Assembly (NCBI RefSeq): GCF_000186865.1 | Contig: NW_008705578.1 | Coordinates: 529,300 to 593,299 of the forward strand | DNA from: Aureococcus anophagefferens | Lineage: Eukaryota; Sar; Pelagophyceae; Pelagomonadales; Pelagomonadaceae | DNA: 64,000 nt | Reading direction: 5' to 3' | Part shown: positions 52,881 to 63,598 of the stretch, one piece after another | Layout: every line of letters begins with the position of its first letter | How positions within the stretch are numbered: the stretch's first letter is position 1 | Translations under genes and position numbers: made by a program | The notes under the pieces: generated by a model | Seen by the model: only the letters and a program-made list of their open reading frames with translations | Told to the model about the DNA's origin: nothing | Database searches by the model: none

Positions 52881-53771
52881 ATGGTCGCCATGGTCCCGCC
52901 CGTGGCCATGCCCGTCTTCGAGGACTACGACTCGCTCGAGAGCGGCGACTGCCGCGAGTTCATCTCCGAGGACCTGCTGACGCCGACGTCGCGGGGCTTC
53001 AACGCGAAGCGCGACGCGACGCACCACTGGGTGCTCTGCAAGCTCACGCGGCCGCACAAGTCCGAGTTCCAGCTCTGCTCCGAGGCCGGCGACTTCCTCC
53101 TCTGCGCGAAGCTCGTCGACGACTGCTACTACGTGTCCACCTACGAGGACTTCCCCGCGTCCGTCGACGAGCGCGGGCTGCGCGGCCGCGCGCCGGCCGC
53201 GATGCGCCACGTCGTCGCGGTCCTCGCGCACCGAAAGACGCCGCGGGGCCCGTGCTTCGAGCTGCGCCTCGTGTCCGCGGCGAGCGCCATCGCGCCGGAG
53301 AAGCCCCTCGCCGAGGTGCGGCCGAGCTCCATCTGGTGCGCGGAGCAGGGCGCGGAGCTCCGGCGCCTCGACGTCGCCCTTCCCGCGGCCGTCGAGAGCC
53401 CGGGCGCGCACTACAAGCACGACTGGCGCCGGCCGCCGCCGCCGCCGCGCGAGAGCCGCGTGCGCCTCCGCAACAAGCTCCCGACCTGGAACAAGCAGCT
53501 CGGCTGCCTGAGCCTCCACTTCGGCCGGAAGCGCGTGCGGACGTCGTCGTCGAAGAACTTCCTCATCTACACCGAGGACGTCCTCAACGACGGCGCGGCG
53601 CGCGAGGACGCGGACAACGCCGCCTTCCAGCTCGGCAAGCTCGCGGCGAAGACCTTCGCCCTCGACTTCCGCTACCCCATCAACCCGCTCCAGGCCTTCG
53701 CCGTCGCGCTCACCGCGTTCCAGATCAAGCACTGCAAGGTGCCCCGGGCCACGCGGAGCGGCTCCGGGTAA
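52881..53771 (+). CDS. Tubby-like C-terminal-domain protein, 296 aa
   Basis: The C-terminal half carries Tubby-family signatures: LRNKLPTWNKQLGCLSLHFG, VRTSSSKNFLIY, AFQLGKLAAKTFALDFRYP and LQAFAVALTAFQIK, which match the known core (R-W-x-x-L-x-x-x-x-L-x-F, V-K-N-F, Q-x-G-K, F-x-D-x-x-Y-P, Q-A-F-x-x-x-L). Tubby proteins bind phosphoinositides at membranes and can link to transcription or to ciliary or vesicle traffic. Which applies here is unknown. The N-terminal half resembles the first strands of the same beta barrel but is less conserved. The start ATG follows GCCGCG, with a second ATG three codons on. No intron. The final residues after KHCK are short and Gly/Ser-rich. Confidence 0.85.
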   Translation: MVAMVPPVAMPVFEDYDSLESGDCREFISEDLLTPTSRGFNAKRDATHHWVLCKLTRPHKSEFQLCSEAGDFLLCAKLVDDCYYVSTYEDFPASVDERGLRGRAPAAMRHVVAVLAHRKTPRGPCFELRLVSAASAIAPEKPLAEVRPSSIWCAEQGAELRRLDVALPAAVESPGAHYKHDWRRPPPPPRESRVRLRNKLPTWNKQLGCLSLHFGRKRVRTSSSKNFLIYTEDVLNDGAAREDADNAAFQLGKLAAKTFALDFRYPINPLQAFAVALTAFQIKHCKVPRATRSGSG

Positions 53772-53915: not shown

Positions 53916-55172
53916 TTAGGGCGTCCAATCTTCCTCACTGAAGAACATGGCGACGATGCAAGACGCGGCGCCGCCCGTGTCACCATCAAGCGCGCGAACT
54001 TCTGCCAGATCGCTCGGGCCAAACTCTACGCCTCCATCGCCGTATTCGTATTCGGCCTCATAGGATAGACGGAGGGCATCAGACAGCATCTCGTGATACC
54101 TCGCAATAGTTTCAATGCTCCGTCGCGATTGGGACATCCAGGCGTCGTTGTCTGCGAGTCGCGCGGAGAGGCTGCGCATCGGGCGATAAAAGTAGTCTTC
54201 GCCGCTGTTGGCGGCCACCTGAAACAGCAGCAAGGCCCCATCTCGGGACTGGGGGACTCCGATGCCTTGCTCAAAGAGCCGACCGAGCTCGTAGGCGGCA
54301 GGCCCGTCGGTGCGGAGGCGATTAAGATGAGTTCTACCTGACTCGCACGAAGAGTGGAAGTGGATGGCCGCTTCCCTCGCGTGATTGCCGTCTTCATCTT
54401 CGCCCGCGGCGGCAAGGGCCGCGTGACAAAGTCCTATTGCGTACCAACCGTGGATACAGTCGTCAATTGGTCGTCGATGCTCCGCATCAGTGGCTCGCTC
54501 CACGAGCTCGAGCGCACGGCGCGCGGCGGCCGGCGTCACGTCGTCAGAGTACCGCACGAGTTCCCCGAGCGCGCGCATGGCAAACGGAATCCTCATGTGC
54601 ACTTGAAGGCACTTGCTCTCCCCGTGGAAAGGGGGCGCGCGCTCGATCACAGTCTCGAGGTAACCGCGGGCGATCGCGCACGACTGGACCACTCCGAGGC
54701 CGTCGCGGTGAAGGAGCGCGAGCCGGTACCGCGCGTGGTCGCACGCCGCGGTCGCGTCCGAGAAGACGTGACAAGGGAAGTCGTCCGACGTTTCGTAGGC
54801 CAGCGCCAAATGAAGGGCGCGCGCCGCGAGAGCAGGAGAAGCCGCGCGGCCGACGTCGGGATGTGAACAGCCCTCGGCGAGCATCGTGCCGAATATCACC
54901 AACGCTTCAACATTACGGGGCGCCGTGGCCGTCGCGACGACCTTGTACCGTTCAAAGCCTCTGCGAGTAGGGATCCCATGCATACCCTCTCTTAAAGTGA
55001 AGCCCTCCAAGTCCGCGACGGCCTTGTTCAGCTCGAACTCCGAAACAAGAGATCGGAGCGCCACGAGCGACTTGTTCGCGGCCAGGGCGGGGTAGACCTC
55101 CCAGAATTCCATGAACGGCATCAGATTCTCCTTCCAGACGGCGGCGGGGAGGTCCTCGAGTCGCGGGGGCAT
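53916..55172 (-). CDS. Sel1-like tetratricopeptide repeat protein, 418 aa
   Basis: I start at the ATG at 55172 (MPPRLEDLPAAVW). The N-terminus (LEDLPAAVWKENLMPFM) resembles an F-box-like helix pair, but weakly. The rest contains Sel1-type helical repeats: ARYRLALLHRDGLGVVQS, HGWYAIGLCHAALAAAGE and AAYELGRLFEQGIGVPQS, with the A-x-x-x-L-G-x-x-Y/F-x-x-G-x-G-V pattern. Sel1 repeats act as protein-binding scaffolds, for example in ubiquitin ligase adaptors. Base composition is lower in GC than the neighbours and codon use is less biased, suggesting a different evolutionary history. It converges with the Tubby-like gene, 144 bp away. Confidence 0.78.
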   Translation of the reverse strand: MPPRLEDLPAAVWKENLMPFMEFWEVYPALAANKSLVALRSLVSEFELNKAVADLEGFTLREGMHGIPTRRGFERYKVVATATAPRNVEALVIFGTMLAEGCSHPDVGRAASPALAARALHLALAYETSDDFPCHVFSDATAACDHARYRLALLHRDGLGVVQSCAIARGYLETVIERAPPFHGESKCLQVHMRIPFAMRALGELVRYSDDVTPAAARRALELVERATDAEHRRPIDDCIHGWYAIGLCHAALAAAGEDEDGNHAREAAIHFHSSCESGRTHLNRLRTDGPAAYELGRLFEQGIGVPQSRDGALLLFQVAANSGEDYFYRPMRSLSARLADNDAWMSQSRRSIETIARYHEMLSDALRLSYEAEYEYGDGGVEFGPSDLAEVRALDGDTGGAASCIVAMFFSEEDWTP

Positions 55173-55306
55173 CGTGCGCACTTGTCAGCGTGCGGCGTCG
55201 CTCGACGCTTTTTGCCTCGGACCTAGCCTCTGAGCCCTTGGCGAGCGCCCGTCGCACGACAACACCTCCCCAGTACCGCTAAACTTTAGCCTAAAGTCCG
55301 CAAAAT

Positions 55307-57098: not shown

Positions 57099-57223
57099 CG
57101 TGACAAACTGGCAGCCGGGCGGACCAGAAACTTCACGTTTACATTAATATCCGCAGGAGTGAAAAAACTCGTGGCCTCAAATCCGCAGGGAGCCTGTTGT
57201 ATACGTCGGCCGGGCAGTCCACC
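57099..57223. promoter_or_regulatory. 125-bp divergent promoter, methyltransferase-fold gene / P-type ATPase
   Basis: Only 125 bp separate the two start codons, so both promoters must overlap or lie in transcribed sequence. The spacer is more AT-rich than the flanks (TTTACATTAATATCCGCAGG around 57137-57156). No specific site was identified. Confidence 0.45.
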
Positions 57224-59716
57224 ATGGCCATGGCGTGCCTCGGCGACGTGAGCTGCCTCGGGGCGGAGGACGAGGACACGCTCCTCGTGTCGAAGAAGGG
57301 CGACCTCGAGGCCGGGGAGAAGATGGTCGAGATGCACGACATCAAGGTGAAGCCGGAGGTGGTCAAGGACTACACGGAGGAGCAGCTCAGCGAGCCCCAC
57401 GGCGTCGCCAAGCCCTTCATGCTCGAGGCCGTCGTGTCGACGATGACGGAGCTCATCGTCGACAAGGGGCCCGAGGACCCGGAGCTCGTCAAGGAGCGGC
57501 ACCGGCACCGCTTCGACGGCAAAGCCGCGGTCAAGCTCGCGGGCCACAAGACGGAGACGCTGACGACCTTCAAGACCATGGAGATGAGCGACCTCCAGGT
57601 CCACGAGGTGCCGCTGCCCCTGCTCGCCGCCGACATGAAGAGCGACCTCAAGGCGGGCCTCAGCGCGACCGCGGCGGCCGACAAGCTCGCGGAGGACGGT
57701 CTGAACGTGCTCGAGTCGCCGCCGAAGGTGACCTTCCTCATGCTCTTCCTCATCCAGCTCACGCAGTTCATCATCGCGCTCCTCCTCGGGGCCTGCGTCG
57801 TCTCCGCGGCCATCAACGCGACGAACAAGGACCGCCGCGGCAACCCGCTCGCGTACGTCGACTCCATCGCCATCTTCATCATCGTCATGCTCAACGCCGT
57901 CATCGCCGCTTCCACGGAGGCGTCGGCGAACGGCGCCCTCGACGCGCTGAGCGCGCTGTCGTCGCCCATCTCGACGGTCGTCCGCGGCGGCGCGGAGGTC
58001 GAGGTCGACTCGAGCCACATCGTCATCGGCGACATCGTCGTCCTCGGCACGGGCGACGTCGTCCCCGCGGACTGCCGCGTGCTCAGCGCCGCGGACCTCA
58101 AGGTCAACGAGATGCTGCTCACGGGCGAGTCCGAGGACGTGTCGAAGACCGACAAGGTGAAGAAGAAGGCGCCGGGCGCCGCGGAGAAGCTCACGGCGGA
58201 CACGATGATCTTCTCGTCGTGCACGGTCAAGGCGGGCAACTGCAAGGCCATGGTCGTGCGCACGGGCATGCGCACGCGCGTCGGCCAGATCGCGGCGCTG
58301 CTCGCGGGCGACGGCGCGAAGCAGGAGGGCTGCCTGCCGGACACGTCGGCGAACCAGACGCCGCTCCAGGTGAGCCTGGGCAAGCTCTCCGTGCAGATCG
58401 GCGTGCTGGCCATCGGCTGCTGCCTCCTCGTCTTCGTCATGGGCCTCGCGCTCGGCGTGAAGGACCCGACGGGCGCGTCGCCGGGCTGGCTCTACATGAT
58501 CCTGATTTCCGTGACGCTGACCGTGGCGGCGATCCCCGAGGGCCTGCCGCTGACGGTGACCATCTCCCTGTCGACGGGCTGCTCCGAGATGGTCAAGGAG
58601 AACGTGCTCATGCGGAAGATCGCGGCCGTCGAGACGCTCGGCTCCGCGTCCGTCATCTGCACGGACAAGACGGGCACGCTGACCGAGGGCAAGATGCGCT
58701 GCGTGAAGATGTTCGTCGCGTCGACGGACTACGACGTCACGGGCAAGGGCTTCGACCCGACCGTGGGCTCCGTCGGCGCGGCCGGCGCGGCCGTCGCGGC
58801 CGACATGTCGTTCGACGGCGCCGACGACCGCAAGGACGACCCCAAGGTCAAGCTGCTCCTGACGTCCGCGCTCTGCTGCTCGTCGACGACGTTGACGAAG
58901 GAGAGCGAGGGCGGCGAGGAGAAGTGGACGCCCAAGGGCAACTCGTCCGAGGCGCCCATCGTCGTCTGCGCGGCCAAGTGCGGCCTCTGGGCCAAGGACC
59001 TCGAGCCCAAGTTCCCCCTCGTCACGGAGATCCCCTTCTCGTCGAGCCGCAAGATGATGATCAAGGTCACGAAGAACGAGTGCGGCGAGCTCGCGGGCGT
59101 CGAGAAGGCCGTCGGCCTCGACGCGAACTACGTCGCGCACATCAAGGGCGCGCCGAACTACATCCTCAAGGGCTGCGACAAGATCCTGCGGCCCGACGGC
59201 TCCGTGACGCCCGTCACGGAGGAGGACAAGGACGCGCTCCTCGCCAAGGTCGACGAGCTCTCGTCGATGGCGCTCCGCGTGCTCGCGATCGCGCTCAAGC
59301 CTTTGGAGTCGCTGCCCTACGACCAGGACGCGGAGATCGAGGACAAGTTCGCCGCCATCGTCAAGAACATCACCTTCGTCGGGCTCGTCGCGTCCATCGA
59401 CCCGGAGCGCGCGGGCGTCAAGGCCGCGATCGAGGTCGCGGCGAACGCGTCCATCCGCACGGTCATGATCACGGGCGACTACCTCAAGACGGCGGCGGCC
59501 ATCGCGAAGAACATCGCCATCCTGCCCGAGGACGGCTCGCTCGACAAGACGGGCGCGGTCGACTGCAACGACCTCCGGCCCGGCGACGACTACCTGTCGA
59601 ACCCGGACATGGACGCGCTCACGGCGCGCGTCAACGTCTTCGCGCGCGCCAAGCCCGAGGACAAGCTCGAGATCGTCAAGTCGCTCCAGCGCCAGGGCCT
59701 CGTGTCGGCGATGACG

Positions 59717-59749
<33 letters not shown>

Positions 59750-60670
59750 GAGGCGGACATCGGCGTGTCCATGGGCCTCGAGGGCACGGAGGTCGCCAAG
59801 GGCGCGTCGGACATGATCCTCACGGACGACAACTTCTGCTCCATCGTCAAGGCCGTCGAGAAGGGCCGCGGCATCTACTCGGGCATCCAGAAGTTCGTGT
59901 CCTTCATCATGTCCGTCCACTTCGCCGAGGTCGTCCAGATCTTCCTCTGCGTCGTGTCGGGCCTGCCGATCATGCGCGTGCCGCTCCAGATCCTCTTCCT
60001 CGTGCTCGTGACGGACCTGCCGCCGGCGATCGCGCTCGGCGTCGAGCCGGGCGAGCCGGGCATCATGAACAAGACGCCGCGGCCGAAGACGCAGCCCGTC
60101 GTCATGCCCTGGATGTGGCGGTGCATCGTCGCCAACGGCCTCATCATGACCGCGGGCATCACCGCGACGTACCTCGTCGCGCTCCGCGCCTACGCGGGCA
60201 CGTACATCCAGGACCAGATCACGGACGGCGACCGCAACCACTGCGACGTCTGGGGCCGCGACGGCGCCTTCGGGTCCCAGAAGTGGTACGACGACCCCGA
60301 CGACGACAACCTCAAGGAGTGCACGAAGTTCGCGATCCGCAAGGCGCGGACCGTCGCGTTCATCGCCTTGGTCTGGGCCGAGAATTTGCGCGCGTACTCC
60401 GCGCGGTCCTTCACGAAGCCCATCTGGAACAACATGTTCTCGAACCCGACGATGAACAAGGCCGTCTTCCTCGGCCAGATCTGCCTCTACTGCGGCCTCT
60501 TCCTCCCGGGCCTGAGCAGCGGCGTCCTCGACCTCCACCCGCTGCCCCGCGCGGGCCACGACGGCATCCAGGCCTACGGCTGGGGCATCGCCGTCTGCGG
60601 CGCCCTCTCCTGCCTCCTCGGCTGCGAGCTCTACAAGTTCGCCATGTCGTTCAACCCGCCCAACGTCTAG
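57224..60670 (+). CDS. P2-type cation-transporting ATPase, 1,148 aa
   Basis: An intronless P-type ATPase with all catalytic motifs: actuator LLTGES (TGES 300-303), M4 IPEGLP (438-442), phosphorylation DKTGTLTEG (Asp481), nucleotide-binding KGAPNYILKGC, hinge GDGVNDAPALKEADIG (832 on), and M6 LVTDLPPAIALG. The PEGLP and TDLPPA membrane motifs place it among P2 ATPases (calcium or sodium/potassium pumps of the SERCA, PMR1 and ENA type). M6 lacks the full SERCA pattern, so the ion is uncertain. The N-terminus of ~130 residues before the first conserved domain is long and acidic. The start at 57224 has an excellent context (ACCATGG). Codon use is strongly GC3, suggesting high expression. Confidence 0.92.
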
Positions 60671-61814: not shown

Positions 61815-62747
61815 ATGCGAGCCGTTGCGACGGCGCTGGCGTTGGCGCTGGTCGCAACGCTCGCGACAGCAGCCGCACAACCGGACGAGGCAGCAGCGAC
61901 AGCCGCACAACCGGACGACGGCGCCATCGTGCTCCTCGGCGGCGCGGCGCGCACCTTCTTGTGCTGCTTCGGCTCGACGGTCGTCAACCTGCTGCGACCG
62001 CTCGACGCCGACCTCTACGCCTATCTCAAATTGAAAGACGCGGCGACGAGCCTCGTCGGCGAGCGCGCCGCCGGCGGCGACCGCGAGCTCTATCGCCCGG
62101 CGAACGCGTCGAGGATCTGGGGCGCGCTGGCCAAGTACGAGAAGTTCGTCGGCGCGAAATTGGTCGACCGCCTGCCCTGCGACGACGCGTGCCTGCTGCA
62201 AGCCGTGGGCTGCCGGGGCAGGTTCGCGGGCCACCTCGCGAACGACTCGCACCTCGAGCGCGCGCTCGGCCAGCACGCGCTGCTCTCGATCCTCGGCGAC
62301 GAGCTCCGGCGCCTCGAGGCGCGGCGCGGCCGGCGCTACGCCGTCGTCGCCTGGGCCCGGCCCGACGTCGTCGTCCGCCAGCCCTACCCGACGAGCATGG
62401 TCGGCGACGCGCCGCGGTCCTGCGGCGGCGGCAGCGACCTCGCGCGCGTGCTGCCGCGCGACGCCGCGGACAAGCTGCTCTTCTCGGGCATGGCCGCCGC
62501 GCGGGAGCCCTGCGGGCCCTTCGGGACGCCCGAGTGCGACTCGCGCGACGCGCGCAAGCTGCGCGTCGAGTGCCGGCCCTACGCGCGCGAGCAGGAGGAC
62601 TTCGTCCGCAGGGCGGTCCAGACGACGGGCTGCGCGGACGTGTGGCCGCGGCGCGCGAAGATGTGCATGGCGGACCCCGAGGCGACGACGTACCGCGGCG
62701 CGCCCGTCTTCGAGGGCGAGGCGGCGCTCCACGCCGGGGCGCCGTAA
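61815..62747 (+). CDS. Secreted/lumenal protein of unknown function, possibly glycosyltransferase-related, 310 aa
   Basis: A clear signal peptide (MRAVATALALALVATLATAAA) is followed by a short duplicated segment (AAQPDEAAAT / AAQPDDGA). The mature start IVLLGGAARTF with LDADLYAYLKL and later YAVVAWARPDVVVRQP resembles small eukaryotic glycosyltransferase-like or DUF families that begin with a GxxRTF strand and carry an RPD motif. Multiple Cys (CDDACLLQAVGC; CGPFGTPEC) suggest disulfides in the secretory pathway. The protein is intact, intronless and ends 89 bp from the convergent GILT gene. I cannot name the family with confidence. Confidence 0.72.
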   Translation: MRAVATALALALVATLATAAAQPDEAAATAAQPDDGAIVLLGGAARTFLCCFGSTVVNLLRPLDADLYAYLKLKDAATSLVGERAAGGDRELYRPANASRIWGALAKYEKFVGAKLVDRLPCDDACLLQAVGCRGRFAGHLANDSHLERALGQHALLSILGDELRRLEARRGRRYAVVAWARPDVVVRQPYPTSMVGDAPRSCGGGSDLARVLPRDAADKLLFSGMAAAREPCGPFGTPECDSRDARKLRVECRPYAREQEDFVRRAVQTTGCADVWPRRAKMCMADPEATTYRGAPVFEGEAALHAGAP

Positions 62748-62759
62748 GGGGCTGTTACC

Positions 62760-62828
62760 GGGGGAGCCGTGGGGCGGTCGGGCGCCGCGCGTCTGGACGC
62801 GCGGCGCCGTCATGGGCCGGCTTCCCCC
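62760..62828 (-). promoter_or_regulatory. SECIS element in the 3' UTR of the GILT selenoprotein gene
   Basis: Starting 24 bp after the stop, the minus strand folds into a SECIS-type hairpin. Lower helix GGGGAAGCCG pairs with CGGCTCCCCC around it. The 5' quartet is ATGA (62813-62810). The upper helix GGCGCCGCGCGTC/GACGCGCGGCGCC has 13 perfect pairs, and the 3' side CGAC (62780-62777) supplies the conserved GA. CC sits near the apex about 13 nt after ATGA, the known C-variant of the apical AA. It overlaps the likely 3' UTR of the convergent plus-strand gene. Confidence 0.82.
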
Positions 62829-62836
62829 CGTCGCCT

Positions 62837-63598
62837 CTACCTCGCGGCCGGCGTCGTCGCGCAGCCCGCGGGCGGCGCGCCGTCGTAGGCGTCGCAGATG
62901 GCCGTGAGCCAGGCGTCGCTGTCGGAGACGTAGACGCCGTCGACCGTGATCCAGACCGCGTCCTCGTAGTACTGCGTGACCTTGTCGTGGTCCTTCTGCA
63001 GCAGCGCGCCGCCGTCGCGCTCGTAGCACTCGTGCAACATCTTGCCCTTGGACGGCTCGAAGCCCGCGGTCTCGGCGCAGGACGTGACGACGTGCTGGAA
63101 CGGCGGCAGGGACGCGTCCGACGCCGAGAGCGTCGTCTGGTTGCGGTACATGCAGGCGACGAAGTCCCACCATCGGTAGTCGTACGCCGGCAGATCGATG
63201 CCGTACTCGGCGCAGAGATAGTACTGGGCGATCTCGCAGTCCTGCTCCGGCGAGCCCGAGAGCGTGCTCGTCGCCGTGCAGTTGGGCTCGAGCGATCCCT
63301 CGACGCTGTAGAAGCCCGTGCCGACGAACATGGGGTGCAGGCTCAGGTCGATGATCCCGCGCAGGCCGGCCGCGCTCATCACCTCCTCGTTGAAGATGAT
63401 GGAGTGCGACCGGCAGACGGATCACGTGCTCACGCACACGACCTCGACGGTGACGCGCGACGCGTCGAGGGACCGGAGCGACGCCAGGCCCCGCCGCCGC
63501 AGCGTCGGCGCCGCCGCGAGCAAGAAGAGGGCCGCGCCCGCGAGGAGCGGCGCGGCTTTGCGACTCCGAGGCAGCCCCAAAGCCGTCGGGGCAGCCAT
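62837..63598 (-). CDS. GILT-family thiol reductase, selenoprotein (in-frame TGA = Sec59), 253 aa
   Basis: From the ATG at 63598 to TAG at 62837 the frame is interrupted once, by TGA at 63422-63424. The residues around it, VTVEVVCVST-U-SVCRSHSIIF, put the TGA exactly at the first position of the GILT redox motif CxxC (U59-S-V-C62). Downstream hallmarks of GILT follow without a shift: GSPEQDCE (equivalent to HGPEEC), DFVACMYRNQ, CAETAGFEPSKGKMLHEC, and VWITVDGVYV. GILT reduces disulfides in acidic endolysosomes. Residues ~15-32 form a signal or signal-anchor segment (APLLAGAALFLLAAA). A pseudogene or intron is unlikely: the frame is the same on both sides, no acceptor lies near, and a SECIS follows. 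Confidence 0.88.

Follow-up and report, generated by a model that had tools for sequence, protein, structure and literature searches.

A UGA codon very probably read as selenocysteine in a divergent GILT-like oxidoreductase of Aureococcus anophagefferens and in its paralogues

On the minus strand of a 64,000-nt stretch of Aureococcus anophagefferens DNA (hereafter the window), a frame of 253 sense codons, counting one TGA, is interrupted by this single in-frame TGA only. Is this codon a stop, or is it read as selenocysteine (Sec, U) at the redox centre of a thiol reductase? The first-pass annotation had proposed the second, with a lone TGA replacing the first cysteine of the CxxC motif of a lysosomal thiol reductase, GILT. 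Reading of the frame bears out the position: it continues to a TAG and the motif at codon 59 is U-S-V-C, that is UxxC (Table 1). In the mechanical list of open reading frames (ORFs), the same frame is represented only by a 181-aa piece after the TGA, from 62837 to 63382, with a GTG start. The predicted product has a hydrophobic stretch near its N-terminus and carries two N-glycosylation sequons, features that would suit a secreted or endomembrane protein.

Table 1. Features of the GILT-like locus and its 3′ flank (window coordinates)
Feature	Position	Strand	Basis or remark
Predicted GILT-like selenoprotein coding frame	62837..63598	-	ATG to TAG, 253 residues including U59
In-frame TGA, codon 59, read as putative Sec, first UxxC position	63422..63424	-	frame reading, paralogue alignment, hhalign with GILT proteins
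Cys62 codon, second UxxC position	63413..63415	-	
Hydrophobic stretch, codons 15-33, possible signal peptide or anchor	63500..63556	-	hydropathy
SECIS-like element, 3′ flank: helices I and II, AUGAC/CGAC core, apical loop of 4 nt	62757..62832	-	scan, fold
SECIS core hairpin, AUGA to GAC	62777..62813	-	scan, pairing
Convergent neighbour ORF, 310 aa, no Pfam family	61815..62747	+	bounds the 89-base gap holding the SECIS-like element

The G+C content of the window is 65-73%. Further away, it carries an intact ORF for a 1157-aa P-type cation ATPase (57197-60670, plus strand) and two ORFs with Tub-family and Sel1-repeat matches (52881-53771, plus strand, and 53916-55181, minus strand).

The first-pass annotation had pointed to 62750-62836 of the minus strand as the place for a SECIS, and a SECIS-like hairpin lies inside this stretch. 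Its AUGA core begins 23 nt beyond the TAG stop, in the 89-base intergenic gap. A strict scan of both window strands ([AG]TGA, helix, GA; score of at least 34, loop of at most 8) returned one site only, with its UGA at 62812 on the minus strand, and no site in 20 dinucleotide shuffles; a looser scan (score of at least 24) added a single place, at 2901 on the plus strand. Folding of the element (62832-62757) gave helix I, the core and helix II, comparable with the general layout of SECIS elements, at -49.9 kcal/mol (z -3.76), a stability equalled by none of 200 shuffles. The scanner, like the RTGACG motif used below, was defined after the GILT genes had been seen, and an Rfam search at E up to 10 returned matches at chance level only, none of them a SECIS.

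We then searched the 49.05-Mb genome with the Pfam GILT model (PF03227), the window protein (P0001) and the proteins P0012, P0010 and P0011. At least eight GILT-like loci were found: the window gene, L001, L003, L004, L005, L053, L054 and L055. The codon before xxC is TGA in seven of them, located on seven contigs, with the motifs UPGC, USVC, UGPC, USDC, UGHC and, twice, UPDC; L054 (contig C14, 1477-2451) carries AGC (Ser) at the Sec position, giving SPDC. With TGA recurring at the aligned codon, it is very unlikely that the stop arose by chance or through an error in sequencing. Similarity within the set is uneven. The closest full-length paralogue of the window protein is L003 (BLASTP E 6e-14; 7.1e-9 in the genome search), while L004 and L005 match the window protein only at 0.02-0.04. 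With L004 as query, E was 1e-46 or better for L053, L054 and L055 but 0.003 for the window gene; L003 matches L005 at 2.8e-4. L001 recovers only itself and is joined to the set through the Pfam model. L005 shifts frame downstream, probably because of an intron, and was thus read in parts only.

The hairpin follows the TGA across these paralogues. In each of the seven TGA loci, a single RTGACG is present in the 330 nt counted from the stop, lying in a foldable hairpin; L054 has none over the same distance, and Sec was possibly lost there together with the SECIS. The window contains RTGACG by itself 0.36 times per 330 nt, hence it is the hairpin that carries evidential weight. Scanner scores were 34-41 for five of the seven loci; the helices of L053 and L055 are imperfect and were missed. 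The L003 element is weakly more stable than its shuffles (z -1.95, 9 of 200 being as good). A C-C mismatch beside the core, not required by the scanner, was present in all 12 scanner-derived hairpins; in four further ones (16 in total) it was forced by the search pattern, and the helices had been preselected by pairing. A covariance model built from two hairpins regained those of L005, L004 and L003 (28.8, 23.6 and 21.8 bits), but its list at E up to 1 ran to 93 matches, and two places in the window (25705 and 3730, with 25.3 and 24.0 bits), neither with an RTGA core, scored above L004 and L003; the model was set aside.

The same scanner was applied to GPX, MsrA and Rdx loci of this genome, from the match start to 1,500 bases past it. 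Scores of at least 29 were obtained in seven of nine loci with TGA in the match (L012 and L029 being low, at 12 and 13) and in none of 14 loci without TGA (highest score 20), where absence refers to the matched stretch and some matches are partial. These counts leave out L013 and L027, second pieces of genes already counted, and MsrA matches that had no locus (C38, with TGA; C17 and C13, without). These GPX, MsrA and Rdx selenoproteins resemble the window gene in combining an in-frame TGA with a similar RUGAC...CCGA hairpin, whereas their protein families differ from its own. When the whole genome was searched with a pattern, 18 places fitted it, versus one for the reversed pattern. By eye, 11 of the 18 are not hairpins and seven are: two belong to GILT loci, four lie behind other apparent selenoprotein frames and one is L046.

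At L034, L040, L049 and L050, SECIS-like hairpins follow frames with an in-frame UGA at a redox-like motif, which resemble Rdx/SelW, deiodinase, Sep15/SelM and peroxiredoxin selenoproteins; their Pfam scores were 21.3 bits for Rdx (below cut-off), 68.2 for T4_deiodinase, 18.6 for Sep15_SelM (below cut-off) and 52.7 for AhpC-TSA. At L046 (contig C16, around 1501), the frame upstream of the SECIS-like hairpin has no clear redox-site UGA.

The genome also encodes Sec machinery. We detected a tRNA-Sec gene (L006, contig C12; 73.9 bits for a gathering score of 47), SepSecS in two pieces (186.7 and 167.5 bits) and the eEFSec domain euk_SelB_III (87.8 bits). Among 14 control genomes, tRNA-Sec matched in all 14 (five above cut-off), SepSecS in three and euk_SelB_III in none. 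Computation thus strongly supports UGA as Sec in the UxxC motif, through the hairpin, the paralogues, the control loci and this machinery. In the scheme that we propose, UGA 59 would be decoded as Sec because the hairpin past the TAG recruits the encoded machinery. An attacking Sec and a resolving Cys follow from the mechanism of GILT and thioredoxin-fold reductases: attack of Sec59 on a substrate disulfide would leave a mixed selenenyl-sulfide for Cys62 to resolve, in a probably secreted and possibly endolysosomal reductase. For the lysosomal placement named by the first-pass annotation, the sequence offers no more than the hydrophobic stretch and the two sequons.

Automatic annotation was expected to lose this active site, and the database relatives support this well. 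Scoring of the best 7995 candidates by shared words gave at least eight relatives of the window protein, with 49-98% identity across 68-74% of the query. Among the matches listed, the N-termini of all eight lie past the Sec site: seven start at the MSA methionine and P0007 at the codon directly before the second Cys. Such starts, read from the protein sequences, are as expected from a stop at the site. Comparison of the 12 codons upstream of the site discriminated poorly between frames (mean identity of 0.324 in the frame of the gene, versus 0.253 and 0.301 in the other two). On viral contigs, 15 stretches fit a pattern and tblastn gave no relatives.

Could the TGA be an ordinary stop in a pseudogene, or a wrong base in the assembly? 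Such an explanation can draw on the fact that our case is built on sequence; it would have to accommodate a TGA at this codon in seven loci, each on a contig of its own, eight of eight relatives among the matches listed that start past it, and a frame open on both sides and followed by a SECIS-like element. We consider it extremely unlikely. The same can be said of a genome-wide readthrough or reassignment of UGA to an ordinary amino acid, involving no selenium. Nothing specific speaks in its favour, long genes such as that of the 1157-aa ATPase are open without TGA, the TGAs lie at redox positions accompanied by a hairpin, and Sec machinery is encoded; we regard its probability as negligible.

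The family assignment calls for more caution than the Sec reading. A selenoprotein of another thioredoxin-fold family, for example DsbA-like, would resemble GILT by shared fold only, and several observations point in this direction. The window protein had no match in Pfam (including GILT PF03227), NCBIfam or PDB sequences, and the CQHG motif is absent from it and from its relatives (CQHGxxEC, which we take to be the GILT signature, has its letters in 6nwx, P0020 and P0021). L003 scored 19.7 bits with GILT and 20.8 with DSBA, both below cut-offs, and the window family profile alone (A5) reached mouse GILT (6nwx) only at E 0.39. Against this, hhalign of the family of the window protein with a set of GILT sequences gave an alignment over 202 columns (probability 97.5, E 8.7e-12) in which U59 falls on the first CxxC cysteine of a plant GILT, as the first-pass annotation had anticipated. 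This set (A6) contains the Sec paralogue L001, its relatives and two Cys GILT proteins, one of them complete (P0020, from a plant). The C-terminal layout, W-[IV]-x-V-[DN]-G and IC-x-A-x-x-G-x-x-P-x-x-C, is as in mouse GILT, and GILT is the best PDB-sequence match for both A5 and the combined profile A3, the latter including L001. By its Pfam score, L001 itself is clearly a GILT (56.4 bits for a cut-off of 22.4). It matches mouse GILT at E 1e-9, although the part of the match that sets its U on the first Cys is weak by itself (11.0 bits). An AlphaFold2 model from nine aligned sequences had a mean pLDDT of 47.1, too low to base a fold search on. On balance, membership of another thioredoxin-fold family seems unlikely.

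Given the lack of a Pfam match, the E of 0.39 and the missing CQHG, we term the window protein divergent GILT-like rather than GILT proper. The GILT identity announced by the first-pass annotation holds in this looser form, through profile comparison and paralogues, and not as a direct family match. Relative to mouse GILT, the window protein would share the CxxC position and C-terminal layout, by way of L001 and the combined profile; it differs by Sec in place of the first Cys and by the absence of CQHG, and neither the protein nor its family profile matches mouse GILT significantly in a direct comparison. The reading that we prefer, and consider very probable from the DNA data, is a divergent GILT-like oxidoreductase of thioredoxin fold, probably secretory, with a UxxC centre whose UGA 59 would be decoded as Sec via the SECIS-like hairpin and the encoded machinery.

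Sec-containing GILT is not new and is already in print. In 2008, three sequences from ocean metagenomes led to GILT being named as a family of eukaryotic selenoproteins, a SECIS being predicted for one of them (PMC2398784); a 'GILT superfamily protein' appeared in 2018 in the legend of Figure 6, on 35 regulated Aureococcus selenoproteins of 59 predicted (PMC5917014); and the 2020 survey of algal selenoproteomes placed GILT with those Sec families that have the narrowest distribution in algae, and reported 82 selenoprotein genes in Aureococcus (PMC7539508). The window protein is like these published forms in being GILT-like with a predicted Sec and, as for the one 2008 sequence, in having a predicted eukaryotic SECIS, a likeness drawn from the descriptions in these sources. 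The window gene itself may well be on the published Aureococcus list. Among titles and passages of the open-licence literature, we found no description of a multigene Sec-GILT set with seven Sec members and one Ser member in one genome.

We think it likely that the at least eight GILT-like genes, seven with Sec, represent an expanded group of UxxC reductases, probably secreted, together with a Ser paralogue, L054, that has no SECIS. Some branches, such as that of the window gene, would be too divergent for the GILT model. L054 and L055 scored 15.3 and 14.8 bits, below cut-off, and L053 had no Pfam hit. If UGA is not decoded, annotation loses the active sites of these genes, as illustrated by the eight relatives that are truncated in the database. 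A genome with seven Sec paralogues beside a Ser form offers a natural comparison for why selenium would be spent by an alga on probably secreted thiol reductases.
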